From NCBI GenBank assembly GCA_914767715.1, contig OU612073.1:9238001-9302000 (forward strand): a stretch of DNA of 64,000 bases. The letters are read 5' to 3'. The notes below the pieces were generated by a model that was not told where the DNA came from, ran no database searches, and saw nothing but the letters and a program-made list of their open reading frames with translations. Origin of the DNA: Membranipora membranacea (taxonomy: Eukaryota; Bryozoa; Gymnolaemata; Cheilostomatida; Membraniporidae). The position numbers and the translations under genes were made by a program. Below are positions 1 through 52,224 of this stretch, piece by piece. Every line of letters begins with the position of its first letter. Within the stretch, counting starts at the first letter, position 1.

Positions 1-276
1 TGTGTGCTGAACTAGGCCCTGCAGAACTGTTACTTCTCAGACAGTTTTGTTTGTGAATGCTGAGCTGGTGTTTTCTTGTAAAAACTTTGCAACAGCCTAA
101 ACACTGAAATCCTATGAAATTCTGATCATGTTTAGTTTTCACATGTCTTTTCAGGTTTGATTTGGTTGAGAATTCACCAAGACACTCTTTACAGACCAAC
201 ATTTCTGTTTGTGATCACTTTACATGTATTTTATGAAGAAACGTTAAACGATAATGTGTTTTCAATATTAACTATT

Positions 277-3200
277 CTATATGGACAAAAAGTCAAAGGT
301 ACCTTCTGCCGCAGGGTTAGTGTTTGTGGAAGATCTATTGGGAAGGATCTCGTCTAGTTTTAGTATGTTGATCTGTGGCATTAAGTTCATCTTGTCGTCT
401 ATATTGGTGAATGACAGTTGTAGAACATACGAGACGAGGCACTGTTGCGTTCTGCAAGATGCACTGATCTCCAGTGCATCTTCTAATGCCAGTGCTCTTT
501 CCAAATTGTGGAGCCTACAAAATAAAAAAATCATATTATTTAAACCTACATGCATAATGAAAGTAGTAAATACCACAATACTGCTGTATTTAACCTATTG
601 GGAAACAATATTCTGAACATAAATTGTATTCAAATTTCAATAGTACGACCCATGACATGATTTGATGGTAGCTCAATGATGGCATTACATGAGACTCAGA
701 ATAAGGAAAGCATCTCATACTTACACTGTCTCTGTTGACTCAGGGGTTCCCCTGAGTCTGAATCGAGCATAGGTCCTCCTAAATCTCCGGTTCACTGGTC
801 TATATAATCTGTTATACTTGGATTCTATTTGCTCCAAGGCTCTTGACAGATCCGATGCCACTGCTGGTGATGCTTGGTACCCCTGAACTGTTTTGGATCT
901 GTATATGTACCTTGGAGTAATGACTACAAAACAAATGAAAAGAACATTCTTAGTATTGTATTATCGAGTCTGTTTTTCAAGTTATGACAACTCGCAAACT
1001 GCAGCAGCAATTATTACCAAGTTGGTAGCTGTCTGAAATAAATTCAAGGAGAGTGCGATTCCTTTTGAATGACAATTCTTTCCTTCCAAGCGGCACAATA
1101 ACTTATTTTGTTTTCCATTGTTTTATTTATTTATACAATTATGATATCTAACTTACATCCTTCTGATAACTGCCTTAGCGCCGTTATACTTAGGGGTCTC
1201 TTTAAAGGATCATTTGCATGCCATACATCTCCTTCCTCCTGTTAGTGAAAAAAAGTAAGTAACATATAAGATATAAAAATACTCTCACATATAAAATTGT
1301 TCACTGTTAGCTATTCAGAGGTTTTGAGGAGATATGCGTAATGAGATGACAATATGGCATTACATAATGGTGGGAGGTGATGCACAAGAACTTCACATGT
1401 GAATAAATATATGCCGTATTTTACTTACATTGAGCTGAATTTCATCAATGTTGAAGTCCGCTACCTTAACCGGATACACCGACAGACCAGGAAACGGTGT
1501 TGGTGTGGTTTGGGGTGCAGTTTGGGGAGAAGTTTGGGATGCTGTTTGGGGTCCGGTCAATGCTGTTGTTGGTGGTGGTGGTGGTGGTGCTGTTGCTGCT
1601 GCTGCCGATTGGTGTCTATACTCCCTCAAAACTGAGGAAGTAGATGGTCCCAAGTCTGGAAGTTCGAATTGGGTATCTTCCAAATCATCAGCTGCTGGGG
1701 GAGGGGGGTATACCAACATCTTCGTGTACTAAAATATTATTGAGAGAGAGAAATGATAAATTGCTTAAGGAGAAATTCATGAAGCTTTTTTTGATAAGTG
1801 AGCATTTGCAATGCAATAATGATACACCTTACCTATACAGGGGTGTATCCATTGGATTGCCTCTAGGGCTAACCCTTACCAACTTTAAAACATGACAATT
1901 ACTCAAAATGGTTATAAAGTCAGCCTCAAGGAGATAACGATTCCAATTTTATGAGATTTCCAAAACAAAAGCCCTAGCATTACCAGGTTGAAGGATAATT
2001 CTCTATGTCTGGAATTAAGTGATATCATTGATATTGAGCACATATAAAAACATAAGGAGAAGTGGTGTAATCTTACTTTTTTAGAGGGAGGGATTGCCTT
2101 GTTCACTCTTGTTGGAATAGGTGCATCGGGTCTATCATGAGAAAAAGTTTCATCATCTTCATCTTCGTCGAGATCACTCGGCAGCTGTGAAAAGAAATTG
2201 ACAAAACTGATTTATGCATGGGTAAGGTGGCACACATATGCAGCCAAGTGTACATAATCCCAACAGAATGAGGAGGTTGATAATTTTCTCCATCTAATAA
2301 AAATGAAATGAAAGGTTTGTCCTCTCTCAATCCTGTCCCTGACACAATAATATTGCAGATATGGAACACTTGACGTGAAACAAGAAGGTTGGAAATTACT
2401 CGATAATAATCATGATAAATGCTTACTTTTGCACATCGCTTGCGTTTCCTTGTCTCAACCTCAACATCCTCATCATCTTCGTCATCATCTTGCCTTTTTC
2501 TCTTTCGTGTGAGGTCAATGACTTCTTCTTCCTCATTCACACTCTATTAACATTAAACATTGAGCACTGATTGATATACAATTAAGTATGTAGAAAAGGG
2601 CAGCCCGTAGGCAGATATTTTTAACAGTGCAATGGAAACACAATCATTATCAAGGGCAAGAACTGTGCAGATTAAACACATGCACATTAGAGTTGTGTAA
2701 CAAAACAAAATTATTAGAAAAAAATTGAATAGGTAATACTCACTTTTTTGCTTCTCTTCGCTAAAGAGTGATTGGGCTTTTTGGCTGGTCGTTTACCCAG
2801 TCGCCTTTCCATTCGCATGTCGCTTTCATCCTCAAAATCATACTAAAACAAACAAGCGTTAAAGCCTTACATAAATGCATAGCAACACTGATAAGGTGAG
2901 GGGTGTAAATCCTGGAGAATCTGGCTGCCTAGTTTAACCAAAAAAAAACGTTTGAGATTTTACAAAAGACTTCTTGGCTTTCTATGCATTATAACCTCAA
3001 GAAGCAAAATTGGTGAAATTAATGCTGAATACTTTTTGTGTATAAGGTAGGTCAAACTTGATCTTCGAATTCACTAAAATCCCTTGCAAGGAAGAAGTCA
3101 TACACACTTGGTAAAAGTATATGGCATACCATGCTAGATTTATTTGTAATAATTAACTACAAAAGTCATTTTGCAAAGTCACTCACCATTTCATCATCAA

Positions 3201-3658
3201 AGCTCCCATCAGAGGCTTTCACCTCCTTCGCCTCACTGTCCAGAAACATTCTCTTGGCATAAGCACTCATAGCGTTGTTCATTTTGTTTGCAGTTTTGCG
3301 GGGCATCTATTTTAAAAGAAAGAACAAAAGTTAGTTGTTTTCAAATTTCTTTTGCCTAACAGGAATTAATAAGGATTTTTTTAAATATTTTTTCTACTGC
3401 TAAAGCACTCGCCAACACAAAAACCAATAAAATCTTTTTAAATTAGCCAAATCAAGCGGGAGGCACAAGTTCAAAATCATGAAATGCACATGTAAAATCT
3501 ACCAAAAGAACTTGAAGCAAACATTCATGAGAAATTATTCTTACTGGTGGAGTCGTTTTGGTGTCTGACTCAAGTTCAGGCTCCAGACACCCACCTGGAC
3601 CCATATGGGATCTTTGTCCCGGTTTGTCGTGAATGCAACCAAAACAAGTATCAAACAT
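277..3658 (-). CDS. Nine-exon gene of the virus-like block, unrecognised nuclear-type basic/acidic protein (458 aa)
   Basis: I read nine coding exons, 3658-3545, 3306-3187, 2842-2744, 2543-2427, 2184-2077, 1728-1429, 1238-1157, 923-725 and 514-277. All have GT-AG borders, and they sum to 459 codons with one stop. The first six junctions are phase 0. Exon 1 has a C-x2-C-x9-H-x5-C pattern containing GQRSHMGPGGC, a likely zinc-binding knuckle. Exons 3-5 alternate acidic runs with clusters such as RKRKR, suggesting nuclear location. Exon 6 is proline- and PQT-repeat rich (PPPPPP, then TGPQTASQTSPQTAPQTTP). The last three exons look globular. An acceptor directly precedes the ATG, implying the upstream noncoding exon annotated separately. 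It lies head-to-tail downstream of the packaging-ATPase cluster. I do not recognise the family; a DNA-binding core or regulatory protein of the element is a guess. Confidence 0.75.
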
Positions 3659-3823
3659 CTAAAATAGTAAATAAAAAAATACAAAAAATACAAAAAAAAT
3701 TAAAAAATTAAAAAATAAAACCTTATTTAAACAAACTCAGAACAGTAACATAATTAATTAATTTGAATTCAGCCAAAAATAAATTCTTATTAAAGGAAAA
3801 ATATGATTACAATTTTTACTTAC

Positions 3824-3905
3824 ATTGAAGAGTAGTAAGGCTTAAGTCTCCTTGGGTACAATGTGTTGACTTGCAAGCAGAGGTGAATTCACTTCAAACT
3901 GAATG
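3824..3905 (-). other. Probable 5' noncoding exon of the nine-exon gene
   Basis: A good donor (CAAT|GTAAGTAAAA) sits at 3824/3823. The coding exon starting at 3658 has an acceptor (TATTTTAG) directly against its ATG. The start near 3905 is inferred only from distance to the TATA box at 3932-3939. Confidence 0.5.
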
Positions 3906-3931
3906 AATGATTTGATGGTTCCAGCCTCATC

Positions 3932-3939
3932 CTTTTATA
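3932..3939 (-). promoter_or_regulatory. TATA box (TATAAAAG) of the nine-exon gene
   Basis: On the minus strand the sequence reads GTATAAAAGG, a consensus TATA box. It lies about 30 nt upstream of the inferred start of the noncoding exon and 280 nt upstream of the coding ATG. Region 3659-4188 otherwise holds AT-rich intron and spacer between this gene and the ATPase stop codon. Confidence 0.6.
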
Positions 3940-4188
3940 CCGTGGTGTTTAACCAAAGATCCATCGCAGGTTTGGAATTTGAAATTGCAATCCCTTAATC
4001 TGCTCTATTATAACTAGTAATTTTAGCCTGTGAGCCTAAATGTTAATTTATCATTGTAAAGCATGACTTGAACTCTCTATGTATTATATATAGCTTTATT
4101 ATTTAAATAACCACTTGGTAAAAATTTTCACAAACACAAGAGTGTTGTGCACCATGTAATAAAAAAAATGCTTATCAACAGAGCAAAA

Positions 4189-5357
4189 CTACTTTGGTAA
4201 ATACACGATACCAGGATTTTCAAAGACTTTTGCTCGTACACGGGCTTTATCATCACAAACTGGGGAGCAATTTAAAAACAGATAACCATAACGATCTTTT
4301 ACTGCATCCAAATATGCTTCTATCACAAGTTTTTCCTTACCCATTTGTCTGCCAATTGTTTTGATTACTGAAATGTCTCTCACAGATTTCATCAACCAGA
4401 AATGGTGTGAGTTCAAACTAATCGTACGGAAAAATGGTCCTTGACAAAATAAATTTTGTGTCAGTGTAATTATGCTATAATTATAATGATGACTAAACTT
4501 TGTATAAAAGTCAGCAATATCCTTAGAGCTGGAAACTTCCTCCATTAAATCATCAATGACTAGAAGTCTATGCTGTCGATCTTTAGGCAATGATTCCATT
4601 GTTGCTAGCCCTTCTATATATTTAATCGGCACCGAGGCATCATAAGAGTTGTAAAGTGGTTGGTAGATTGAGTAACAGATAATTATTTCCACAGGTGGTG
4701 GCACAAAGATTTTTTCAGCATGGGAAATAATTTCTCTTAGTAGGGTAGATTTACCACTTGATGTCGGCCCTAAAAATATACAGCATAAAAAGTCAGCAGG
4801 ATAGAGATTGTGACTAAAATTCTTTCATTTACACACAATCATAGAATATTGCACATTACTATTGACCTCTTGAGTGTTATTTTTTTCAAGTTTGCAGACA
4901 CAGATGATTTATTAGCGTTATACAAGCTGATCATCCCATAATAACCGTACCTCCAAGTACTGGGTGTGTTTAAAATTATGGGAAGGATTGCGGTGATGAA
5001 ATGCTCATTAAAGTTAAAATTTAATGGGAGTTTTTACCCGCAAAAGTTCCGATTTTATGGGAGATTTTGCCGCAAAATTTCCGCTTCTGCTCTAATTTTG
5101 AACGCATTAAGGGGATTAATAAGTCATTTTGCACCACCCTTTGACGTCAATTACAAATAGCCTAGGTTGTTTGCTCGGCAAATTCGCTGTCACAAATCCC
5201 AACAAAAATTTTCATGCAGGCTCCCCTCCGCTTTGGCTCAGAGGCTCATATAACCCTGCTTAAGGTCAAAAAACAACTAGATAAAAATCTTGCCTGAGAT
5301 TATAGATGTGAATGGTGCAGCAAGGTGAAATTCTGTTGTCTTAAGATTTGAAGCCAT
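4189..5357 (-). CDS. Polinton/adintovirus-type genome-packaging ATPase (HerA/FtsK superfamily), 214 aa, two exons
   Basis: Exons are 5357-5294 and 4769-4189, giving 215 codons including the stop. In this family the enzyme drives viral DNA into preformed capsids by ATP hydrolysis. Visible motifs are Walker A GPTSSGKST, an ICYSIYQPLYN block, Walker B LLVIDDLMEE, the sensor-like ITLTQNLFCQG, RTISLNSHHF, IGRQM and a C-terminal EAYLDA...GYLFLN...YLPK ending. Order and spacing match Polinton and adintovirus ATPases, and the length is usual for them. The intron splits the codon of the first Walker A glycine and uses a GC donor (TCAG|GCAAGA) with a TTTTTAG acceptor. The ATG is one base after the stop of the preceding small membrane-protein frame. 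The frame is intact, so it was either recently inserted or maintained. The ATPase call is firm; whether it is viral or domesticated is open. Confidence 0.9.
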
Positions 5358-5358
5358 A

Positions 5359-5559
5359 CTAGAATGTAGAGTTTGTTGACTTTGAAGTGGATTCAAAGTT
5401 TTCACCGAGGAGCTTTATTATAGAATGTAGCTCTCCCTTCTCTTGTTGAACAAACACTGCACACAGTGAACATATGGTGGCAACGGTAATCAGGATAATT
5501 GTGAGAAGTGCGCGGTATTGCGATAAAAACTGTCTGGTTGTGATATCAGACACAGGCAT
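5359..5559 (-). CDS. Small single-pass membrane protein of the virus-like block (66 aa)
   Basis: The protein has a 19-20-residue hydrophobic segment at about residues 19-38 (LLTIILITVATICSLCAVF). It is preceded by a short polar N-terminus and followed by a serine/threonine-rich, asparagine-containing tail (STSKSTNSTF). The frame starts 6 nt after the stop of the upstream 113-aa frame, and its stop is followed after one base by the ATPase ATG. This spacing, with no in-frame stops in any of the four neighbours, supports it as a real gene despite its size. The family is not recognised. By analogy with tectivirus/adenovirus-lineage gene sets, a small virion membrane protein is possible but unproven. 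Confidence 0.6.
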   Translation of the reverse strand: MPVSDITTRQFLSQYRALLTIILITVATICSLCAVFVQQEKGELHSIIKLLGENFESTSKSTNSTF

Positions 5560-5565
5560 GGCAAA

Positions 5566-5907
5566 CTAACGTAAATGAGGAGGTAATGTAACAGTGTAGG
5601 GTGCGTCTGGTAGCAGTACCACTATCTGACTGAACAAAGCCTCTTTCTTTGCCTTTATTAAATATCTGGTCACAGGTCTATGAAATCCTGATGGAATCAT
5701 CAACATTGCGATTTCATACCAAATATCAAAATGGTGGCGTAATTTATCAGTGTGCAGAAGATACATGTATTGATTTATAAGTTGACAGTCATGCTGAAAG
5801 AAGTCTGTATAGCCTTGAGCATTACAGCCTTGACAATGTTTGCTGACCTGGAGGGAGATTAATTTCCACAAAGTAGCAGCCATAGATGCATCTGCTGTTT
5901 TATCCAT
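5566..5907 (-). CDS. Unrecognised Cys/His protein of the virus-like block (113 aa)
   Basis: The protein carries a C-x2-C-x10-H-x-C pattern (CQGCNAQGYTDFFQHDC) near residues 25-41, resembling a small zinc knuckle. A largely helical, aromatic-rich region follows. The first exon of the nine-exon gene has a comparable C-x2-C-x9-H-x5-C pattern, so the two proteins may share a motif. The frame starts 7 nt after the stop of the 170-aa frame and ends 6 nt before the next ATG. It has no splice signals that would be needed to keep it open. Function unknown; the pattern is seen directly, zinc binding is inferred. Confidence 0.65.
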   Translation of the reverse strand: MDKTADASMAATLWKLISLQVSKHCQGCNAQGYTDFFQHDCQLINQYMYLLHTDKLRHHFDIWYEIAMLMIPSGFHRPVTRYLIKAKKEALFSQIVVLLPDAPYTVTLPPHLR

Positions 5908-5914
5908 TATGTTG

Positions 5915-6427
5915 TTACCATAGACAGATTATGCTAAATACCAACAAAGTAACCAACAGGTAAAATATCTGCCGCATCACTGCCTGAAATCTCACTCGAT
6001 TGATAGCTTTATTTAAAGTTCTGCAAAAGGTGTTTATTGAATGAGTACTTATGCTACCAACTTCATTTTTGCCCAATGACAAAAATACCTTCTGTAGAAT
6101 AGTCACTAATGTAATCGAATGAAACAGCAACTTCTTGCTGTTTGTGGTAGATGATAAGATTTCTTCACAGAGGGAGGCATAGGTCTGTGTAGTTTGGCTG
6201 GCAGATAAGGTTTTTCTTGATATCATTTCAATATCACTCACATACAATTCTTCCACATTTTGTTGAAGCATGTACAGCATCCTGGATTTGTAATCCATCA
6301 ATGTCAGAGATGGAGAATAACATTTGCCTGCAAGATTGGTTAATAAATATTGTCTTGTATTAATCGGTGAACTCAGATATTTTAACAGGTTAAGATAACC
6401 ACTTGTCTTTTCTGACAGTTCCATCAT
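5915..6427 (-). CDS. Unrecognised protein with C-terminal membrane anchor, first gene of the four-frame cluster (170 aa)
   Basis: The frame is open to 6472. I prefer the ATG at 6427 because a TATATA element at 6472-6478 would place transcription start inside the longer version. The body is helical and polar without an obvious enzyme motif. The C-terminus ends in a hydrophobic stretch (IFYLLVTLLVFSIICLW) that should insert in a membrane, making it a tail-anchored candidate. It leads the series of tightly spaced frames ending with the packaging ATPase. Its upstream region is shared with the divergent zinc-ribbon gene. No family recognised. Confidence 0.65.
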   Translation of the reverse strand: MMELSEKTSGYLNLLKYLSSPINTRQYLLTNLAGKCYSPSLTLMDYKSRMLYMLQQNVEELYVSDIEMISRKTLSASQTTQTYASLCEEILSSTTNSKKLLFHSITLVTILQKVFLSLGKNEVGSISTHSINTFCRTLNKAINRVRFQAVMRQIFYLLVTLLVFSIICLW

Positions 6428-6471
6428 AGGTTGCCTAGGAAACACTAATATGAATAAGTATCTTCCATACA

Positions 6472-6503
6472 ATATATAACTACTTGGTTCACGGCTATTT
6501 AAG
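6472..6503. promoter_or_regulatory. Divergent promoter region with two TATA-like elements
   Basis: TATATAT at 6472-6478 is suitably placed for the minus-strand cluster starting at 6427. TATTTAAG at 6496-6503 is suitably placed for the plus-strand gene starting at 6612. About 185 bp separates the two start codons, so the genes probably share control sequence. An imperfect CA-rich stretch follows at 6523-6565. Confidence 0.45.
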
Positions 6504-6611
6504 CGCTTGCCTGCTTACCAAATTCACACACACACTAGGAGGCACACAGACGCACTTACACACAACCAAAGTGACTATTTGTTCCATCTATTATAGGACA
6601 CTATTATTACA

Positions 6612-7343
6612 ATGGATCATGTGAGTATACACACATACATTGCTTTTATTTTTTGTACATAATTATCTTGTTTTTTATGCTCCGTATCGTTTTATTCTGA
6701 TTGTATACGACTTGTCAAATAGCTTATGTGATTTTCCATTGCTCAGAATAATATGTTTGCTTGGTAACTAGTCATAATATTTATTTTGCAGTCTCATTCC
6801 TGTCCAGAATGTGCCAAAGAATTAATTCCTAATGGTGAGGAGCTGCACCTCACGAGACAGTCGGCAAAGACTTCAGATGAATTAAAAGAATTATTTGCAG
6901 CTGATAGTTTTCACTGTCCGGCATGCGAGGGTAGAATAGCAATGATGGATGCCAAACGTAAGTACATACATTCAGTACAATTATACAAGTATATATACAA
7001 GTATATTCCTGAAGGTAATTTTCATTAATATGTAGTTATTACTGTCCAACATGCGAGAGTAGAATGTCAAATGTAAGTGCATACATTCAGCGCATCAACC
7101 ATCTATGTTTGCTGTAGGTAAAGATGCTTTCATTACATACCTGAAGGCAATTTACATTAATATGTAATCTCTAACTCCTGTGTTGTAGATGTAAAGAGGA
7201 TGCAACATCGGTTTAAAATTATGAGATCAGATCTGCTGCGTAAAACAAGGTCGACGCTTAGGGAGTTAGCAGCAGCAGAGGCAGAGTTAGATAGAGCTGT
7301 AAGACAAAAACTGCGACGAGTGGTTATGAAAGACAATCTTTAA
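6612..7343 (+). CDS. Zinc-ribbon/coiled-coil protein divergent from the ATPase cluster (109 aa, three exons)
   Basis: Exons are 6612-6620 (nine bases, encoding only MDH), 6792-6957 and 7189-7343, with consensus GTGAGT/GTAAGT donors and CAG/TAG acceptors. Together they make 110 codons with one stop. Residues 4-53 carry two CxxC pairs (CPEC and CPAC) about 38 residues apart, typical of a four-cysteine zinc ribbon. The last 50 residues are strongly charged and helical (LRKTRSTLRELAAAEAELDRA), likely a coiled coil. Similar paired CxxC proteins are common in DNA-virus gene sets as transcription or packaging accessories, but I cannot assign this one. The tiny first exon is unusual. It probably belongs to the same element as the minus-strand cluster because the promoters abut. 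Confidence 0.7.
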
Positions 7344-8640
7344 TCTGTAATTGAATCTCTAATATTTTGCTTTTCTTGTTAATTTTTTTTTATCTCTTCT
7401 TTCACATTGTTTTTGTTTTTATGCTGGGCTGCGTAATTTGTGTTGGAATGGTGGGTGTCAAAGTTATGCTCATCAAGGAAATCAAAGCATGAGCCTGGCA
7501 TTGTTACCCTGCTGCCTACGGGAGCACTCACGAATTATGTTGCCATTTCTGTCAGATCAGGAACGCATGCACCTGCTACCAGTAACATGTAATCTAGTAC
7601 AATCTGTTCCATGGACTATGTCAGATGCCTAATCTGACAACCTTGTATTCATTTATTCCCTGTAATTTATATTATGTGATTTTATACATGTCTTTGCTGT
7701 CTCTACCTCAGATTTATTATTGAAAATGTTTTAACACCTAAATTAACATATACCTACATTCAGCTGCATATTTATCAATTCAAGCCTGTACCAATGAGCA
7801 TTTTATCCCTCACAAACAAATATTTAACACAACACTAGCTAACTGTGAATCTTCTCAATCACTTTACCCACACAAGCATCTCATCATTTATTATGAATAA
7901 ATATACTGTGTAGAATTACATAAACAAACTTCCATCAGATCAATGACCCACCTCACCATACAAAATGATAACAAAAGCAATTGACAACTCCATAGCTTTA
8001 TGAGTAGTTGCTACACCACGTTGAGCACAAAATAAATACTGTGATGAATCACCGTAATTGAACAGCCAGTGGCTCCACCAGGAGCGTTACAGGCGGGAAC
8101 AGTCCGCCTATCTGTTAAAATGTGATCGAGCTGACCAACTCCTCCCAAATCTACTACTATTGCTGCATAACCATTTATATCACTGTTAGTGATTGGGTTA
8201 AAATGTCGACCTTGCCTAACATTTATACTTTTTTTTATAATTATAGAAGCATTCGATACTCTCCTCAGTGAGTTAAAGCTAACTGAAAGCGGTAAAGAGT
8301 GTTTGCGGGAACCAGGTGATCCGTATATGCCCCCTAACACTCCGCTAAGTGAACAACCGGCTCGTAATTGCACTCCACTTTTTCTCTACCGTTGACTCTA
8401 TGGTTTCCATATCTACACAGTAAGTACAAAAATTGTGAAACCTTTATATGTGGTACTGTAAAAATTGCCCGATAACAAGCGTAGATTTATTCCAATCCGC
8501 TTACTTGTGGGTATCGATGTGTATGTTATGGTGTATGTTATGGTGTACCAGCGCTGACCCCCTTATATTTCTGCACAAAACATTGTCATCTCATAATGAA
8601 AATTGTTATCAATAATGAATATGTCATTTTCATTATGCAT
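7344..8640. other. No gene recognised
   Basis: AT-rich sequence with short unsupported frames on both strands. No repeat boundary or terminal inverted repeat of the virus-like block was found here by eye. Confidence 0.5.
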
Positions 8641-18549: not shown

Positions 18550-18720
18550 TCATGACAGCGGAGGAGTTAGATAAGGGAGATAATTCTATCACTCATCCAG
18601 TATCAGGGAACTGGAGTGTATCCCTAACTGGTTATCTGATGTAGCCCCAGATCTCTTACAGCTCAAACTGCGGAATGTAAACAAAGACTTTCTCAGAGAG
18701 GATAGAGTTGGATGGCAGAA
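18550..18720 (+). repeat. Exon-like repeat unit, copy 1 (frameshifted)
   Basis: First of about 13 copies of a roughly 180-bp unit running from agAGACATGACAGTGGAGGAG to GAATGGCAG|GTTTAAGT. An intact copy encodes MTVEEIELDKGDNSITHL, then CIPNWLSD(V/I)APDLLQLKL, then a basic VEWQ end. This copy has a frameshift after the ITH block. Confidence 0.7.
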
Positions 18721-18871
18721 TTAAGTAGAGTTTTTATACTTTTTTGTTTACTGATTATTTTAGTCGTGTTATTAGTGTCTTATAAGATTATATTACAGAA
18801 TATATTGCAGTATATTTTTTTAGACATGGACGTTTATTTATTTCATTTAACAAATTGAGGCCATTACTTAC

Positions 18872-19050
18872 AGAGACATGACAGTGGGGGGAGATAGAGT
18901 TAGATAAGGGAGATAACTCTATCACACATCTCAGTATCAGGGATCTTGAGTCTATCCCTAACTGGTTATCTGATGTAGCACCAGATCAGACACAGCTCAA
19001 ACTGGGGGATATAAATGAAGACTCTTTCAGACGGGAAGAGTTGAACAGCA
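18872..19050 (+). repeat. Exon-like repeat unit, copy 2
   Basis: Same unit with an extra G in the GTGGGGGGAG tract that shifts the frame. It is preceded by an acceptor-like TTACAG. Confidence 0.7.
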
Positions 19051-19385
19051 GGTTTAAGAGGAGTACATATACTATTTTATTTACAAGTTATTGTGATTAT
19101 CAATTTGCATTACAGAAGAAATACAGAGTCTGGTACAGAGTTTGGTACAGACACTCAGGAGAAGAAGAGATAGAGCAGATACCTTACTGTATGTCTTACA
19201 GAGACATGACAGAGGAGGAGATAGAGTTAGGTAAGGGAGATGATTCTATCACTCATCTCAGTATCCAAGACCTGGAGTGTATTCCTAACTGGTTATCTGA
19301 TATAGCTCCAGATCTTCTACAGCTCAAACTACAGGATATAAATAAAGACTCTCTCAGACGGGCTAGAGGTGAATGGCAGGGTTAA
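19041..19385 (+). CDS. Best-preserved copy of the duplicated exon family (114-aa frame)
   Basis: This continuous frame joins two repeated exon-like blocks. The first contains the tandem RVWYRVWYRHSGEEEIEQ; the second is the repeat unit proper, MTEEEIELGKGDDSITHLSI followed by CIPNWLSDIAPDLLQLKLQD and a basic GEWQG end. Acceptor-like TTACAG precedes each block (about 19110 and 19201), and GGCAG|GGTTAAG at the end resembles a donor. These are therefore probably exons that happen to be open across the short intron between them. The conserved protein-level reading across copies suggests a once-functional, locally amplified gene. I do not recognise the domain; it is helical and might be a death-fold-like adaptor, but that is speculation. 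Confidence 0.45.
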   Translation: MNSRFKRSTYTILFTSYCDYQFALQKKYRVWYRVWYRHSGEEEIEQIPYCMSYRDMTEEEIELGKGDDSITHLSIQDLECIPNWLSDIAPDLLQLKLQDINKDSLRRARGEWQG

Positions 19386-19441
19386 GTAGGTAGAGTCTTT
19401 ATACGTTTTTGTTTACTGGTTATTTTAGTCATGTTATTGCA

Positions 19442-19930
19442 GATGACGCCATTGTTTCAATATGTATGTGTATTTCCCCAACCATTTATATAGTAGATAC
19501 CACAGGCCTTTAAGGTTTCACGTCAAAGACTATTGTCTCCAGATGAGCGGCTGGAGAGGAGGCTTGGGTGTGTCCATAGGGTCCTTCCTCCCATGCGCCT
19601 ACTGCATTTTTGCATGCTTAGATACACTTGTCCAGTGTGACGAGGTTTAAAAACTGCAAGTTAGTTTATTATTGTCTTATTAGATTATATTACAGAATAT
19701 AGCAGATGACGCCATTGTTTCAATATGTATGTGTATTTCCCCAACCATTTATATAGTAGATACTACAGGCCATTAAGATTTCACCGTCAAAGACTATTGT
19801 CTCCAGATGAGCGGCTAGAGAGGAGGCTTGGGTGTGTCCCAAGGGTCCTTCCTCCCATGTGCCTACTGCATTTTTGCATGCTTAGATACACTTCTCCAGT
19901 GTGTCGAGGTTTAAAAACTGTAAGTTAATT
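19442..19930 (+). repeat. Tandem pair of 263-bp units (cagatgacgccattgtttca...)
   Basis: The block from 'gcagatgacgccattgtttc' (19440) recurs from about 19703 almost unchanged. In one frame both copies read RQRLLSPDERLERRLG and PP-M-x-LLHFCMLRYT. A diverged relative lies at 23270-23395 (RPLRFYGQTLPSP, MERIRLG). The conserved frame shows that this too is derived from coding sequence. Confidence 0.7.
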
Positions 19931-20017
19931 TATTATTGCCTTATTAGATTATATTACAGAATATATTGCAGTATATTTGTGCAACATGGAAGCTAGTTGA
20001 TTTAGTCAATTTCTTAC

Positions 20018-20192
20018 AGAGACACGACAGTGGGGGAGATAGAGTTAGATAAGGGAGATAACTCTATCACACATCTCAGTATACGGGACCTGGTGTGTAT
20101 TCCTGATTGGTTATCTGCTATAGCTCCAGATCTCATCCAGACTGGGGGAGATTAATGAAGAATCACTCAGACAGGATAGAGTTGAATGGCAG
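20018..20192 (+). repeat. Exon-like repeat unit, copy 4 (short deletion)
   Basis: A member of the 180-bp exon-like family. It lacks bases in the LLQLKL region, which breaks the frame. It lies immediately upstream of the 576-bp tandem array. Confidence 0.7.
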
Positions 20193-20210
20193 GTTTAAGT
20201 AGTGCACACA

Positions 20211-21938
20211 TTGTATTATTTTATTTACTAGTTATTTTAGTTATTTATTAGTTTTACAATATATTACATTATAGTTATATACATTGCAGCAAATTTTATT
20301 GCAACTGATATCTCAGGTTTCCTTTAGGAGGATGTGCCAAACAGACTTTGCTGGACACAGGGCCCATGCATCCTGTATCACAACAATATCATAAGAAAAT
20401 GTTAGTCCTAACAGTCAGTTATTATTAGTACAATGTAGGGATCATAGCCTCCTACTACAATGCTGACTAATTTGGTAAAAGACCAATCATTTAGCGGTGC
20501 AACTGGTTTTTTAATGTGTTTCAGTGAGAATTACGTATCTGCATCGCTTATGCCTTCTGTTATAGAAATCCAGACAGGAGCTAGAGAAGGCCGGATGCAT
20601 TGCAAAGGGCCCATCGTTTGAAAGAGTTCACCTGCGTAACATCCTCTTGCGTTATCTTAAGACGGTGAACAAGCATCTTATTGAACATTTACCACATTTG
20701 ACTTAACTTGATAAATAGATTTTCCCTTTCATTTTTGTGGTTGAGTCTCAAAGGCTCAGTTGAATATATATAATATATATAACATTGTATTATTTTATTT
20801 ACTAGTTATTTTAGTTAAATTATTAGTTTTACAATATATTACATTACAGTTATATACATTGCAGCAAATTTTATTGCAACTGATATCTCAGGTTTCCTTT
20901 AGGAGGATGTGCCAAACAGACTTTGCTGGACACAGGGGCCCATGCATCCTGTATCACAACAATATCATAAGAAAATGTTAGTCCTAACAGTCAGTTATTA
21001 TTAGTACAATGTAGGGATCACAGCCTCCTACTACAATGCTGACTAATTTGGTAAAGGACCAATCATTTAGCGGTGCAACTGGTTTTTTAATGTGTTTCAG
21101 TGAGAATTACGTATCTGCATCGCTTATGCCTTCTGTTATAGAAATCCAGACAGGAGCTAGAGAAGGCCGGATGCATTGCAAAGGGCCCATCGTTTGAAAG
21201 AGTTCACCTGCGTAACATCCTCTTGCGTTATCTTAAGACGGTGAACAAGCATCTTATTGAACATTTACCACATTTGACTTAACTTGATAAATAGATTTTC
21301 CCTTTCATTTTTGTGGTTGAGTCTCAAAGGCTCAGTTGAATATATATAATATATATAACATTGTATTATTTTATTTACTAGTTATTTTAGTTAAATTATT
21401 AGTTTTACAATATATTACATTACAGTTATATACATTGCAGCAAATTTTATTGCAACTGATATCTCAGGTTTCCTTTAGGAGGATGTGCCAAACAGACTTT
21501 GCTGGACACAGGGGCCCATGCATCCTGTATCACAACAATATCATAAGAAAATGTTAGTCCTAACAGTCAGTTATTATTAGTACAATGTAGGGATCACAGC
21601 CTCCTACTACAATGCTGACTAATTTGGTAAAGGACCAATCATTTAGCGGTGCAACTGGTTTTTTAATGTGTTTCAGTGAGAATTACGTATCTGCATCGCT
21701 TATGCCTTCTGTTATAGAAATCCAGACAGGAGCTAGAGAAGGCCGGATGCATTGCAAAGGCCCCATCGTTTGAAAGAGTTCACCTGCGGAACATCCTGTT
21801 GCGTTATCTTAAGACAGTGAACAAGCATCTTATTGAACATTTACCACATTTGACTAAACTTGATAAATAGATTTTCCCTTTTGTTTTTTGTGGTTGAGTC
21901 TCAAAGGCTCAGTTGAATATATATAATATATATAACAA
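20211..21938 (+). repeat. Tandem array, three copies of a 576-bp unit
   Basis: The unit boundaries are about 20211, 20787 and 21363. Units 2 and 3 are identical over the 222-bp frame starting at 20760 and 21336, and differ from each other and from unit 1 only at scattered single bases. Each unit holds an acceptor-like tract, the segment RRMCQTDFAGHRGPCILYHN, and later a frame reading QELEKAGCIAKGPSFERVHL and ending in an IEHLPHLT stop. That frame looks like a terminal exon of a gene. Near identity points to recent unequal crossing-over or amplification. Confidence 0.9.
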
Positions 21939-22283
21939 TTTATTTTGTCAGTCACGTAAGTGTAAAATCTCTCACTAATATTACTGCATATTTTTAGGGT
22001 CTCCAGATAAAAATTTAATTTTGGTGCAATGAGATTACACTTAACATAATTTTTACATCGTTTTTACGTATTGACCTGTTCAGTTGAAAAAATATATATT
22101 CTTCACAGTTCAAGAAATTTCTTTGCCCATATTGGCCCATATTGTAAGGTTTTTATACCAAATACAGAAATGGTGTGGGAAATAGAGAGATTCCCATATT
22201 AGGTATCATACAGCTAAATTTTCATGATTATTTAGTGCAACTTATCATTCGTTATCATCACATTAAACAGAAGTACCCGCCTC

Positions 22284-22345
22284 TGGCATAGAGCTTGGTA
22301 CAGACACTCAGGAGAGAAGGAGATAGAGGAGATACAGTGGTACCG
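22284..22345 (+). repeat. RVWYRHSGE-type exon block, isolated copy
   Basis: Contains 'gagcttggtacagacactcag' and the gagataga tract shared with 19111-19190, 22771-22830 and 27395-27450. It is followed by a different sequence (KVAFNLLQKSLLNAHILYRK) that looks like decayed coding DNA. Confidence 0.5.
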
Positions 22346-22770
22346 AAAGGTCGCCTTCAACCTCCTCCAGAAATCGCTGTTGAATGCCCACATCCTATAT
22401 CGCAAGAAAGGAGGTCCTCAAATCTATAAACAATTTCAGCCGGCAGTTATTGCCTCACTGTTGCTTGATGAGACAGAAAATATTAGAAGAATATTCATAA
22501 TGTACTCTTGCCGCAGGATGATTTCTTGACCAGATTAGAGGGAAATCATTTCCTATCTCTCAGTCCAATCATGCTGGTGGTCGGCTGCCACGCAAGAAGT
22601 GTAGAGTTGAATGGTAGGTTTAAGTAGATTACTTGTTATTTACTTGTTATTTTGGTCATGTTATTAGTGTCATATTAAACTATATTACAGTATATATTAT
22701 ATATTGCAATAAACTTTTTCGACAGATAACTTAGGTTTCCTATAGATGATGTGCCACAGAAGAAACAGCC

Positions 22771-23130
22771 ACTGGTACAGAGTTTGGTACAGACACTCAG
22801 GAGAGGAAGAGATAGAGTAGATACCTTACTGTATGTCTTACAGAGGCATGACAGTGGAGGAGATAGAGTTAGGTAAGGGAGATAATTCTATCACTCATCT
22901 CAGTATCCAAGACCTGGAGTGTATCCCTAACTGGTTATCTGATATAGCTCCAGATCTTCTACAGCTCAGACTGCAGAATATAAATTAAGACTCTCTCAGA
23001 CGGGATAGAGTAGAATAACAGGTTTAAGTCGAGTTTGTCTGTGTCATCATGCATAGTCTGGTGTTACTCTGTGTATTGTTTTATTTTATTTTACTATAGT
23101 TATTTTAGTCATGTTATTAGTTATACATAA
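22771..23130 (+). repeat. Long repeat copy A (exon units plus 3' flank), duplicated at 27395-27740
   Basis: Contains the RVWYRHSGE block, exon-like unit copy 5 and a 3' flank (gtcgagtttgtctgtgtcat...). From about 22855 to 23129 it is essentially identical to 27465-27740. The frame ends prematurely because 'aatataaattaagac' introduces a stop, a defect shared by both copies, so the duplication followed the mutation. Confidence 0.85.
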
Positions 23131-23269
23131 GAATATATTACAGTTTATCTATATTGCAGTAAATATTTTGACTGATAAGTAGGAATGGAAAGGCTTAGGC
23201 TTGGGTTAGGCATGCTATAGCAGATGACACAAACTTAGAGGTGGCTGCCTTTGTTAATTTTTACTAATT

Positions 23270-23395
23270 TTTACGCCCATTAAGATTTTATGGTCAAACC
23301 CTTCCGTCTCCAAGTGAAGAAATGGAAAGGATTAGGCTCGGGATGATCCCAAAGGGAATCCCCTCCATCAGAATGTTGCATCTATGCCAACCAAG
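23270..23395 (+). repeat. Diverged copy of the 263-bp unit
   Basis: One frame reads RPLRFYGQTLPSPSEEMERI, comparable with RPLRFHRQRLLSPDERLERR at about 19770-19830. It shows that the family also exists in an older, diverged form. Confidence 0.5.
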
Positions 23396-23639
23396 ATACA
23401 TCTATAATTAATACGACCAATGTATCAATAGTTGACCATAGTTGACTATAGTTATCACTGTCTGCGGATGCTTGACCGAAACACTCAAACAACCTCACGA
23501 CTCGCAGGCGTGTGTACAAGTGTTGGGATAATGTTGATGGTTGATGACTTCTATAAATGGTGACGATATCATATGGTAGGCCACGTTTCCATGTCAGCCT
23601 TCATGTAGATATAGAGTAGATAGCTTACTGTATGACCTA

Positions 23640-23800
23640 CAGAGACATGACAGAGTGGGAGATAGGAGTTAGATAAAAGAGATCAACGATCTGGTGTGTA
23701 TATCTGATATAGCATCAGATCTCATACACTGCTCAAACTGTGGGATATCTATGGAGACTACCAGAAAGGATAGAGCTGTATGTACACACTTGAACAGTAC
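23640..23800 (+). repeat. Exon-like repeat unit, copy 6 (heavily decayed)
   Basis: Recognisable by 'agagacatgacagag', 'gatctggtgtgtat', 'gctcaaactgtgggatat' and 'aggatagagctg', with several deletions. Confidence 0.5.
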
Positions 23801-24519
23801 ATGGACAAATAATATATTGTTGATACTGGAACCTGTGGCCTGCAGGGAGATAATTGATGCTGCATGGTTCAACCACGGGCTCGAAGATGCGGGTCCAAAA
23901 TCATCATTCCTGTATGTAGAGTACATAAATACAATTTTATTTACTTGTTATTTAAGTGATGTTAATAGTGTTATATTGGACTATATTACAGTATGTATGT
24001 TGCAGTATATACCTCTTGCGTCATGGAGACATGGAATCTAATTGTCTGTGTTGGTGAGTAATGGGAAAGCTAAAAATCTACAAACTACAACCAGAGTACA
24101 TTTACCACCTCAACTGTACAGGAGATAGATCCTACCAGAAAGCACATTGTATACCACTCTGCAACTCAGTTCCGAAGCAACTGTGATGACTTTCACCCTA
24201 GGATCGATTTGTGATATGTACGATTTATGCGGAGTTTCTCATCTGAAAAGTCTGAAATCATCAGTTAAATAAAAAACACCTACAATTTCCAAAACCGTAA
24301 AAACGACAGATATTGTGGTGATATGTTCCTTACACTCGTATATCTCATGTAATGTATTTTTGTGTATTGTTGTGAAGTTTAGCGTATTGTTGTGTATTTC
24401 AGTATTTATAGTATGATGAATATCAACCACATCTAGCAGGATGAAAACTTGATTGATTTCACGTTTTCTAATCATTGAAAAAAATTAATTGGCTGCCGCT
24501 CAAAATAACAAAACTAACC

Positions 24520-24620
24520 CCAAATTGGGTGTCTGATATAGCACCTCATCTGATAAAGCTCAAACTGGGGGATATTGGTAAAGACTTTCTCAGGCAGGAT
24601 AGAGTTGAATGACAGGCAGA
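24520..24620 (+). repeat. Exon-like repeat unit, copy 7 (3' part)
   Basis: Begins in the WLSDIAP region ('gtgtctgatatagcacctc') and runs through 'aagctcaaactgggggatat' to 'gagttgaatgacaggc'. Confidence 0.6.
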
Positions 24621-25280
24621 AGTAGATACATTAATTGTAACATTTCATTTACTAGTTATTTAAGTTGTTATAATTAATGTTATATTGGATTTTATCACAG
24701 CTGTCCCACAACCCTTACACTAACAGGAACAGGAACAACTTCCGTAACAACCACACACCTTATCTGTCGGTTGACGCGGCCCTCATGAGCCTACCACACT
24801 TTAATCTCCCCAGCATTTGATTGTTCTGCATGCTATCAAAGGTGTACACTAGTGAGCGCTCTAACATTGGACAAAAACGTTGACAAGCATACTATCAGTC
24901 AAAATAAACAATTATGGGTGTTGCAATGATACCAAATCCCCCAACAAAATATATGTTGATATCAAGAAAGCACGGCTCATGAGCACAACAAGGTTTATGT
25001 GAAACCCAACGCTTCTTCTACTGCCCAGATAGATGTTGGCAAGGTAAAGTTGTGTGAATTTGTTTTGTCGCCAATGCCTGGCCCGGCTGTCGTGTCAGCA
25101 GGTATGGCTCGGTGTGCCTCTGCGTGAGAGAAGACGGCACAATCTTTGTTTGCACATATAAGGGATTTCATTTTGAGGTGCAGTAAGTAGCCGAAGGACT
25201 GAATAAAATGCTCATGTTGTTCTATATTTTATAGATTGACTTTCCTAGCACTCTTAAAACGTTCTTCTACTTTCTCGCCG

Positions 25281-25446
25281 CACATGACGGTGGAGGAGAT
25301 AGAATTAGATTAGGGAGATAATTCTATCACTCATCTCAGTATCCGGGATCTGGAGTGTATCCCTGACTGGTTACCTGATGTAGCACCAGATATCTTACAG
25401 CTCAAACTGGGGGATATTGATGGTGACTCTCAGATAGGGTCGAAGT
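25281..25446 (+). repeat. Exon-like repeat unit, copy 8
   Basis: Nearly full length, starting 'cacatgacggtggaggaga'. It has a stop early in the unit (GATTAGGGAG) and a shortened 3' end. Confidence 0.65.
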
Positions 25447-25547
25447 AAAGCATAAATTGTTATATTTTGTTTATTTCTTGTTTAAGTTATTTTATTTTTT
25501 CGAAATTATTTTACAAACAGCGTAGATACCTTACTGTATGACTTGCA

Positions 25548-25660
25548 GAGACATGACAGTGGAGGAGATAGAGTTAGATAAGGGAGATAATTCTATCACT
25601 CATCTCGGTATCAGGGACCTGGGGTGTATCATTGGTTATCACTGGTTATCTGATGTCAGA
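25548..25660 (+). repeat. Exon-like repeat unit, copy 9 (5' part)
   Basis: The 5' two thirds of the unit is preserved. It then breaks off after a local duplication of 'tggttatc', with unrelated sequence following. Confidence 0.6.
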
Positions 25661-26139
25661 TACTGACCAGAAATTACCCATAGGGTTGATAACCTGATTA
25701 GGCTATAATGATAACTTGACTCTCCTCAAACTTATTAGTGACAGAGAAGGACATGAAGGGATCAGATTGTCAACCTCATCTAGTTTACCAGCATCATGTA
25801 CAATCACCAAACTACAACAGAGGGCAGAAATCTTTACCGATTGCTTATGTCTTTGGTCAAGCTCCAAAAGCTTGCTTACAGTGACGAGGCAGCAAGGTGC
25901 CAAAAGAGTATTTAAAGAGCCTATAACCAGAGCTTCATCTTTGCGATCATGTATATCAGACTGTTTGGTGATCCGTCCAAGACTAAGACATCACATCGGT
26001 CAATGTTTGGTGTCCCATTCCATAATATCAGTGTACACCTACCCAAGACTTTGAGACTAGGGAATGGAAGGTCAATCATGGCTGAGGCGGCAGAGCGCCA
26101 CTTCTACAAGCTCAGGTAATTATACCTCAGGGTGATATA

Positions 26140-26220
26140 ATCATCAGATATCAGATATTATACAGCTAAAGCTGTGGGAGATTTAAGAAGACCTGTCAGA
26201 CAGGATAGATTTGTAAGTAG
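26140..26220 (+). repeat. Exon-like repeat unit, copy 10 (3' part)
   Basis: Short 3' remnant: 'cagctaaagctgtgggagat' then 'cagacaggatagatttgtaag'. Confidence 0.45.
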
Positions 26221-26461
26221 AGTACATATATTATTATATTTTATTTACTTGTTATTTTAGTAGTGTTAATAGGGCTGTGAAAAAAATCGCGTTAATTAGA
26301 CAATTGACGCGATTAATCCATAATAAGATTAATCTGATTAATTCAATGATTAATTTTAATCTTTAAAAAAATTATGCCTTTGTATAAAAGTAAATTATAT
26401 ATGGGTATATTTTTAAATGTATAGAATATTTTACCATATTCACTAGTGCTTTAAATTGCAG

Positions 26462-27095
26462 GTAGAGATGGCTTACGGGGAAGTGATGGTAGGCTTGGCC
26501 CTCAAGGTCCACAGGGATCCTCTGGTTCCCCAAGCCCTCCTGGTCCCCCATCTGAATCAGTTTCAGTCTACATAAGATGGGACAGAACATCATGTGCTGG
26601 AAATTCTTCTCTTGTGTATCAATGTAAGAGCCTTTCTTTAGTGTATTAGTAATATGGCTAAAGATTATATCAAGGTGATAACCATGCTTAGGTTTATTGA
26701 GAGTGGGATGAATAATACGTAGAGAGATAATTACAAAATGTAGATATCATCCTTTGCTTCATAAGTGTTCACTTGTTCATTGTGATTTCGATTGAACACC
26801 AAACAGGAATTTTCCTGATGTTTCAACCTTGTTATGTGAATCATGACGCTTTGAAATGGATTTTGAGGCAAAAAAAACAAAAAGTGCTATCAAGGTTTTG
26901 CTGCTGGAAGTTACTATAATAGCATTGGAGGAGGTGTGAACTATCAATGTCTCCATCTACAGCCAGAGTATAACTCATGCAACCATGGTGGACCATCTAG
27001 TGTCTTATCTGGTGCTGAGTATGAGTCAGCTTACAATGGACATGTCCAACTAGCCATACTCGACCATAACATGAATTGCAACAGAAATGTAAAGA
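26462..27095 (+). pseudogene. Short-chain collagen C4-like fragment (collagen repeat plus C-terminal domain)
   Basis: Exon 26462-26623 begins with Gly-X-Y repeats (DGLRGSDGRLGPQGPQG, then PPGPP) and enters VYIRWDRTSCAGNSSLVY. The second exon, from about 26885, reads GFAAGSYYNSIGGGVNYQCL, then PEYNSC and GAEYESAY, and ends at a GTGTGT donor after NVKKG. This order (collagen stalk, Y-x-RW-x-R-x-[ST]-C, LVY-x-G, GGG-x-NY-x-CL, GAEY) is that of short-chain collagen C4-like extracellular proteins first described in sponges and found in several invertebrate phyla. No signal peptide exon or clear last exon is visible, and the surroundings are repeats, so I call it a gene fragment. The exact acceptor of exon 2 is ambiguous. 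Confidence 0.65.
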
Positions 27096-27243
27096 AAGGT
27101 GTGTTATCAATTTGGCAGAGAGAGTATGGAAGTTCAATATCATGACTTCTATGTTGACATAATAAGCTCAACAAGAATCCTGGTAAAAACAAATCAAGCT
27201 CATCGCTTACCACATTAACCACCGATGAATTTGTTATTTACAG

Positions 27244-27376
27244 ATGAGCACGGAGAACCGGTCATGAGGATGACCTACTCAGAGGCTGCAAAGGCGTACA
27301 GGTTGAGGAAGGTATATGTTCAAAGGACGTACAGTTTTAGAGAAAGAATCAAGGCTAGGGTCATGGATCCATTATA
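27244..27376 (+). other. Possible helix-turn-helix exon of transposon type
   Basis: After an acceptor-like TTTACAG at 27242 the frame reads GEPVMRMTYSEAAKAYRLRK and ends at a stop near 27375. The 'YSEAAKAY-L' pattern resembles Psq-type HTH motifs of pogo-like proteins. It is unlikely to be the next exon of the collagen fragment. Confidence 0.3.
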
Positions 27377-27394
27377 GCATCACATTAAACAGAA

Positions 27395-27740
27395 GTAGTA
27401 CAGAGGCTGGTACAGAGTTTGGTACAGGCATTCAGGAGAGAAGGGGATAGAGGCATGACAGTGGAGGAGATAGAGTTAGATAAGGGAGATAATTCAATCA
27501 CTCATCTCAGTATCCAAGACCTGGAGTGTATCCCTAACTGGTTATCTGATATAGCTCCAGATCTTCTACAGCTCAGACTGCAGAATATAAATTAAGACTC
27601 TCTCAGACGGGATAGAGTAGAATAACAGGTTTAAGTCGAGTTTGTCTGTGTCATCATGCATAGTCTGGTGTTACTCTGTGTATTGTTTTATTTTATTTTA
27701 CTATAGTTATTTTAGTCATGTTATTAGTTATACATAAGGG
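27395..27740 (+). repeat. Long repeat copy B, duplicate of 22771-23130
   Basis: Contains the RVWYRHSGE block and exon-like unit copy 11, with the same internal stop and the same 3' flank as copy A 4.6 kb upstream. Immediately after it (27741-27785) is a 3' remnant of another unit ('aggcaggaaagagttgaatgatgg'). Confidence 0.85.
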
Positions 27741-27835
27741 GTGGCTTTACTCTCTTAGGCAGGAAAGAGTTGAATGATGGTTTCAAGTATAGTGTACATA
27801 ACATGTTCTAATATTTTATTTACTTGTGTCAATAG

Positions 27836-28030
27836 GGTGTCAATATCGCCGAGTCAGAAACTGCCTGATGTGATCAAAGAAAAGTATCCCAACATGAGAG
27901 TCATCATTGACTGCACGGAGATATTCAACGACTTACCTCTACCAACTGTTGAACTCAATATTCCCATTTCTTGGCAACATAACCCAATTTCGACAACAAA
28001 TGCCTGGACGTTTTTCTATGAAACTTAACC
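27836..28030 (+). pseudogene. DDE transposase fragment (DDE_Tnp_4/ISL2EU-like)
   Basis: The frame reads LPDVIKEKYPNMRVIIDCTE, then IFNDLPLPTVELN. The motif YP-x-x-R-VIIDCTEIF includes the first catalytic aspartate and is characteristic of animal DDE_4 transposases, where the typical form is 'F-x-x-YP-x-x-R-x-IIDCTEIFIE-P'. The downstream catalytic region is missing and a second, worse copy lies at 28330-28420, so the element is dead. Confidence 0.65.
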
Positions 28031-28106
28031 ATAAATGAAAGAAAAAATTACATGTCAGCTTAAGGAATTATTAGACCGAGGTATCATGGGCATAACCATA
28101 TTACGC

Positions 28107-28295
28107 CCTTAGAGATATGACAGTGGGAGAAATAGAGTTAGATCAGGGAGATAATTTTATCACTCATCTCAGTATCAGGGATCAGTGTATCCCTAACTGG
28201 TTACTGATGTAGCGCCAGATCTCTTACAGCTCAAACTGGGTGATATCAATGAAGACTCTCTCAGACAGGATAGAGTTGAATGGCAGGTTCAAGTA
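28107..28295 (+). repeat. Exon-like repeat unit, copy 13
   Basis: The 3'-most member of the family, from 'agagatatgacagtgggaga' to 'gaatggcaggttcaagtag', with small deletions that interrupt the frame. Confidence 0.65.
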
Positions 28296-28329
28296 GAGTT
28301 CAAATACTATACTATTTTATTTGCTTCCG

Positions 28330-50256: not shown

Positions 50257-50259
50257 TGT

Positions 50260-52220: not shown

Positions 52221-52224
52221 CTCT

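Follow-up and report, generated by a model that had tools for sequence, protein, structure and literature searches.

What kind of genetic unit does a virus-like block of genes in a bryozoan genome belong to? We examined this question for positions 277 to 7343 of a 64,000-nucleotide stretch of Membranipora membranacea contig OU612073.1 (the window; C9:9238001-9302000 in the 339 Mb, 18-contig genome that was searched). An earlier note on this DNA had recognised a packaging ATPase among six genes and had left three possibilities, namely the end of a longer endogenous element that extends leftward beyond position 1, a reduced or new lineage, or a domesticated cluster. The first of these proved right: the rest of a Polinton lies to the left, complete with terminal inverted repeats (TIRs) and a target site duplication (TSD). 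Very probably, the block forms the right arm of a whole Polinton (Maverick) that has moved recently and has intron-bearing genes. The identity of its core is standard, and the gene structure is the new part.

The complete element comprises window positions 1 to 8158 and a further 9,667 bases leftward (C9:9228334-9238000), 17,825 bases altogether. Its left end (L009:334, or C9:9228334) and its right end (window position 8158) were located by aligning four near-identical copies to the window and its left flank. The TIRs, about 135 bp long, start with AGTAGT and are identical at 131 of 136 aligned bases, the first aligned base falling outside the repeat. The right TIR (8024..8158), delimited by alignment to the left end starting at L009:334, ends in AAATCTACTACT and is followed by the right copy of a 6-bp TSD, ATTGCT (8159..8164), the left copy of which precedes L009:334; both flanks were read directly. 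TIRs and a 6-bp TSD, the hallmark of Polintons, are both present; the earlier note had proposed a search for TIRs with 5-6-bp duplications. The block itself is a real group of genes, its outer coordinates, 277 and 7343, being the stop codons of the leftmost and rightmost genes, but it makes up half of an element whose right end is at 8158.

Genes on the plus strand of the left part are p109, p290, an integrase gene, one for a protein in the minor capsid position, p157, and those for a putative major capsid protein (MCP) and a putative protease; the minus strand carries a putative PolB gene of 1,405 codons. The integrase, MCP, protease, PolB, and minor-capsid-position protein were all found within the 9,667 bases on the left, where the note had advised looking for them; its statement that integrase, protease, and capsid genes are missing holds for the block but not for the element. 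PolB begins inside the window, where the note had seen no polymerase: positions 1..202 (minus strand) encode its N-terminal C2H2 part in a directly read frame that continues in L009:5988-9998 (C9:9233988-9237998), with the PolB motifs. These motifs are GYDANSLY, KLSGNAIYG, and DTDS, and the protein is 39% identical to the PolB of a second family. The integrase, a hallmark gene, has a Pfam rve match (E = 3.1e-6) and a chromodomain, and is 35-43% identical over long stretches to integrases of other loci, one of which passes the rve cut-off. The MCP has a weak double-jelly-roll-like Pfam match (E = 0.0022) and the protease a weak Peptidase_C5 match (E = 0.011), its position after the MCP being the fitting one. 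The putative minor capsid protein (PX, penton-like) sits before the MCP and was matched in all six other Polinton loci that we read. Core virion genes of the same kind are found in adintoviruses and Polinton-like viruses.

Copies of the element are dispersed in the genome. At least 43 stretches match the ATPase (5 at 99-100% identity, family A, including the window; 22 at 92-93%, family B; and 16 more distant, some of which are pieces of one gene) and 51 match the MCP, these counts being lower bounds. The MCP frame lacks a stop or split in 25 of the 27 A and B copies (5/5 A, 20/22 B). Family A copies share 98.7-99.8% identity with the window across long stretches and lie at different sites. 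All five copies for which both ends were read, a set outside which A2 and A4 fall, have a 6-bp TSD: ATTGCT (window), ATCATG (A3), and CGTATG (A5) in family A, and GAGGAC (B1) and ATCCCA (B2) in family B. Because the A copies are near-identical and the MCP frames intact, the element moved recently. In the four other A copies no stop interrupts any of the 17 right-arm pieces, and all splice dinucleotides are kept.

The packaging ATPase, the gene on which the earlier note had built its case, was correctly called: the open frame at 4192-4824 (minus strand) contains all the motifs quoted there, and 50 protein relatives were found at E ≤ 0.001 among 140 candidates. Motifs and relatives together show the hallmark of A32-like packaging ATPases, and the best Pfam matches are Pox_A32 (1.8e-4) and Adeno_IVa2 (6e-4). 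This gene appears to be interrupted by an intron. Exon 1 (5294..5357, minus strand, 64 bases; 90% amino acid identity in B) encodes the strand before the P-loop, the predicted intron (4770..5293, minus strand, 524 bp) lies immediately ahead of the P-loop, and exon 2 (4189..4769, minus strand) runs from the P-loop to the YLPK end. The intron is GC-AG in A and GT-AG in B, the donor being GC in all five A copies and GT in the three B copies that were read. In B2 it is longer (about 770 bp), and it is 84-89% identical to the A intron. When the unspliced frame is read back from the P-loop, one TGA is met in each of the 22 B copies, and in the three read (L006-L008) it falls within the intron. Exon 2 has a ratio of nonsynonymous to synonymous substitutions (dN/dS) of 0.088 between A and B, with a dS of 0.26. 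Since the start codon and the pre-P-loop strand are in exon 1 and the P-loop in exon 2, we infer that the ATPase would be obtainable in full only via a spliced mRNA. The IVa2 protein of adenoviruses is likewise a packaging ATPase made from spliced mRNA, in which a short first exon is joined to the ATPase body; the very short first exon is the shared trait, predicted in our case, whereas the Adeno_IVa2 match itself remains under the Pfam cut-off.

Two further genes of the right arm appear to be spliced. The earlier note had described the five frames besides the ATPase as all open; instead, 3658-277 (minus strand) reads as one gene, SPL, of nine exons and eight GT-AG introns in a single continuous frame of 458 codons plus stop, and the plus-strand gene is split as well. 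SPL exon 1 (3545..3658) carries a knuckle, CFGC...GQRSH...GGCL, and its ATG is preceded by a TTTTAG that resembles a splice acceptor, a hint of an intron in the leader. The remaining exons, all on the minus strand, are exon 2 (3187..3306), exon 3 (2744..2842), exon 4 (2427..2543; acidic/basic), exon 5 (2077..2184), exon 6 (1429..1728; Pro/Gln-rich), exon 7 (1157..1238), exon 8 (725..923), and exon 9 with the stop (277..514); their limits are set by the splice borders (GT-AG for exons 3 and 4). In both B copies under study, seven of the nine exons have a counterpart at E ≤ 0.001, and their order is kept. Splice signals are found at the matching exon ends in B wherever the match extends to them, and the last two introns keep their phases (1 and 2), whereas all eight A introns fail to align with the B pieces at a threshold of E ≤ 1e-3. 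For exons 1, 2, 6, and 8, dN/dS is 0.14-0.29 with saturated dS; it was not computable for exons 7 and 9, and exons 3, 4, and 5 were outside the calculation. Among the other A copies, exons 5 and 6 vary in length by multiples of three, bar exon 5 of A4.

The second of these genes, the zinc-ribbon gene, lies on the plus strand and is predicted to have exons of 9, 166, and 155 bases (330 in total). Exon 1 (6612..6620) reads ATGGATCAT before a GTGAGT donor; in B2, ATGGAACAT precedes the same GTGAGT. Exon 2 (6792..6957), with two CxxC knuckles, has GCAG and GTAAGT borders that match in B2 and is 75% identical to B at the amino acid level. The last exon (7189..7343), basic and coiled-coil-like by eye, follows a TTGTAG acceptor and is 82% identical in B (dN/dS 0.22). 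Values of dS for this gene are 0.13 and 0.44. Between the last two exons is an exon-like 37-base duplicate of the end of exon 2 (7036..7072, plus strand), decayed or alternative, which has AG/GT borders and direct repeats at 7002/7134 and 6949/7064.

Three unsplit minus-strand genes complete the arm; by eye, membrane-anchored, Cys/His, and zinc-ribbon frames do exist within 277-7343, as the note had claimed. ORF170 (5915..6427), a helical protein with a C-terminal membrane helix, has nine database relatives, a dS of 0.25, and a dN/dS of 0.37 between A and B, computed on 185 codons of which 15 lie upstream of the ATG. ORF113 (5566..5907; dN/dS 0.21, dS 0.16) contains a CxGC...HxC knuckle and has three database relatives. 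TM66 (5359..5559; 66 amino acids, one membrane helix by eye) is 94% identical in B, with a dN/dS of 0.14 and a dS of 0.19. A similar CxGC...H...C knuckle is carried, by eye, by SPL exon 1 (3545-3658) and ORF113 (5566-5907). Across the arm, the A-B comparison shows a signature of purifying selection on most genes.

Divergence between the families, measured as A versus B2 (B1 for SPL exon 8), is uneven along the element. Protein identity is about 80% for PolB, 84% for the MCP, 65% for the integrase, and 54% for the protease. In the right cassette dS is about 0.13-0.44, whereas in the adjoining SPL it is saturated (1.4-2.3 or beyond). The simplest reading of this mosaic would be exchange of the cassette between families A and B, with uneven rates as the alternative. 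Elsewhere, at C5:11839584-11840697, we observed pieces of a capsid gene that contain stops and share 41-59% identity with the window family; they may represent a third relative, now decayed, that stands between A/B and the distant families.

The position of the ATPase also sets this lineage apart from six further Polinton loci in this genome (L027-L032; 10 kb read at each), which fall into three families by ATPase tree. Core genes are alike: PolB, integrase, minor capsid protein, and ATPase were matched in 6/6 loci, and MCP, p157, and p109 in 5/6 each, at about 22-56% amino acid identity by piece. In contrast to the window element, the ATPase frame is open across the P-loop in all six. It directly adjoins p109 in five (p109 is unmatched in L031), whereas in the window element the ATPase lies away from p109/PM, on the far side of PolB, a place to which it may have moved or where it may have been captured. 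SPL, ORF170, ORF113, TM66, and the zinc-ribbon gene had no match at E ≤ 0.01 in the six loci, a search confined to the 10-kb pieces, so that genes beyond them would be missed.

An ATPase tree was built from 47 of the 50 database relatives (P0003, P0007, and P0050, shorter than 165 amino acids, were excluded), without named references. The window and B sequences group in a supported clade with P0001, P0002, P0004, and P0005 (100/99). Adding P0003 and P0007 by identity gives six proteins, four of which have no P-loop, while P0001 reads into the intron and P0002 lacks a start codon. By contrast, 40 of the other 44 database ATPases have a P-loop under a loose pattern, and those 40 all start with M. 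As the clade proteins are mostly P-loop-less or intron-reading and the others mostly are not, this suggests that the ATPase intron may be clade-wide. P0001, of the B type, has a W at the position of the TGA that B copies carry before the P-loop, as though predicted with TGA as Trp. The contigs of 17.5-18.7 kb that hold relatives, such as P0004, P0005, P0057, P0059, and P0060, look element-sized, and may be free genomes or collapsed repeats.

Several observations weigh against a complete, mobile, spliced Polinton. Pfam scores of the ATPase, integrase, MCP, and protease are all under the curated cut-offs, and the minor capsid protein has no Pfam match. PolB matches no polymerase in Pfam or PDB, so that its identity rests on the motifs, and the PolB of the second family likewise has no Pfam polymerase match. 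Structure models of the MCP (predicted local distance difference test, pLDDT, 45) and of ORF170 (helical, low confidence, pLDDT 53) are too poor for use. In family B, two MCP frames out of 22 are broken (one TAA, one split), and copy A2 carries about 2 kb of other DNA (C3:15763034-15765063) in its left half, near the protease and PolB. SPL exon 4 has no match in B and exon 3 one at only E = 0.99; exon 5 of A4 differs by +8 bases, not a multiple of three; and zinc-ribbon exon 2 has a dN/dS of 1.03 on 55 codons. Finally, splicing was inferred from genomic DNA alone. Four queries (the ATPase by itself, its alignment, the alignment of ORF170, and the MCP) met no relative in viral contigs, and sequence comparison with the PDB was unproductive for the ATPase, PolB, and the MCP alignment. 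For ORF170, 19 of the best 50 of 223 Foldseek matches belonged to the Bcl-2 family, none significant (best E = 0.74, with the model at pLDDT 53), and a second structure aligner had no Bcl-2 entry among the 50 matches listed.

How unusual would such a gene structure be? The vertebrate Mavericks/Polintons described by Barreat and Katzourakis 2021 (PMC8097293), from which we took the names PM, PZ, and PW for p109, p290, and p157 by position, are alike in their (AGT)2//(ACT)2-type ends, 6-bp TSD, length of about 17 kb, integrase - minor capsid - PW - MCP - protease module, and accessory regions beside the core. They differ in having a PolB-ATPase-PM-PZ module, where our ATPase lies beyond PolB, and in their introns: the authors state that none were seen in intact elements, in agreement with Kapitonov and Jurka 2006, whereas here the ATPase and two further genes appear spliced. 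Intronless genes, a generality for intact vertebrate elements and not a defining trait, are apparently not what this element has. PMC4028283 equates PX with the penton and PY with the major capsid protein, PMC12220804 reports group I introns in Polinton-like viruses, and PMC11244446 finds endogenous virus genes mostly intron-free, with KDM4-like genes having kept exons. The word "intron" is absent from PMC11071308 and PMC10328495, and the Polinton passages of PMC5718144 and PMC6431247 are silent on introns of Polintons. A literature search of titles and abstract openings found no intron-bearing Polinton; subscription papers, which may describe invertebrate ones, were mostly beyond its scope.

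Among the other explanations, the one that survives best is that an otherwise ordinary Polinton picked up SPL, a spliced gene of the host, with the ATPase intron as the sole change to a core gene. This is compatible with a recently mobile, intron-bearing Polinton, and finding no right-arm accessory genes (E ≤ 0.01) in the 10-kb pieces of the six other loci speaks for it. Nothing decisive tells against it, and no host copy of SPL is known, but no search aimed at one gave a result; we judge it rather unlikely. Improbable, to our minds, is a dying element mobilised by intact relatives, in which the "introns" are gene-breaking insertions. That the splice models derive from genomic DNA leaves room for it, as do the rare GC donor in A and a 33-bp tandem repeat in the ATPase intron, which could be inserted repeat DNA. 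However, AG and GT/GC borders stand at the modelled exons and are common to A and B although SPL introns are unalignable, dN/dS is 0.09-0.37 in ATPase exon 2, TM66, ORF113, and ORF170, and 17/17 pieces are stop-free in every other A copy. Because borders, frames, and exon conservation are kept while SPL introns diverge, functional introns are favoured over insertions in dead genes, and they seem to predate the divergence of A and B. Domestication of a Polinton into a cluster of host genes, as the note had considered, would fit the host-like multi-exon genes and the purifying selection in most of them, but it becomes very unlikely because of the 27 dispersed copies, the intact MCP frames in 25 of them, and the TSDs in 5/5; TIRs, core genes, and the presence at different sites of five A copies with stretch-wise identities of 98.7-99.8% argue against it further. 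A reduced adenovirus/PRD1-lineage element without polymerase, integrase, and capsid, the note's reduced or new lineage, has next to no chance, because those core genes are all present left of position 1, inside the same TIRs.

For the intron-bearing Polinton, a plausible life cycle can be drawn from the family to which it belongs: the element would be copied by the protein-primed PolB and inserted by the integrase, and the ATPase would package it into a double-jelly-roll capsid matured by the protease. Judging from the DNA, the ATPase of this lineage would stand outside the PolB-ATP-PM block, among lineage-specific accessory genes beyond PolB. SPL may encode a nuclear-looking protein, with its knuckle and its basic and acidic stretches; from their make-up we would guess that SPL and the zinc-ribbon protein probably regulate expression or replication of the element, and that ORF170 and TM66 are probably accessory proteins acting at membranes. 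More tentatively, and as rather less likely than not, we suggest that this recently mobile lineage might have its packaging motor made via host splicing and carry it in a cassette (ATPase, ORF170, ORF113, TM66, and the zinc-ribbon gene) exchanged between families as a unit. If true, splicing could act as a switch between silent or early and packaging phases. Intact intron-bearing Polintons would show that spread is compatible with dependence on host splicing, and would offer a handle on when and where the packaging motor is made. At least one large survey of endogenous DNA viruses used a prokaryotic/virus gene finder on the premise that such viruses are intron-free (PMC10120064); this rule appears to fail for a core gene here.

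Rfam and tRNA scans of the window had no matches. Its remaining, right part resembles, by eye, the usual intron-rich host genes. The host stretch at 18553-28317 is rich in degenerate direct repeats, among them two tandem arrays, one threefold (576-bp) and one twofold (264-bp). Farther right, at 42397-58046, there is by eye a tandem pair of transporter-like host genes, pieces of which are 73-93% identical and lie about 8-11 kb apart.

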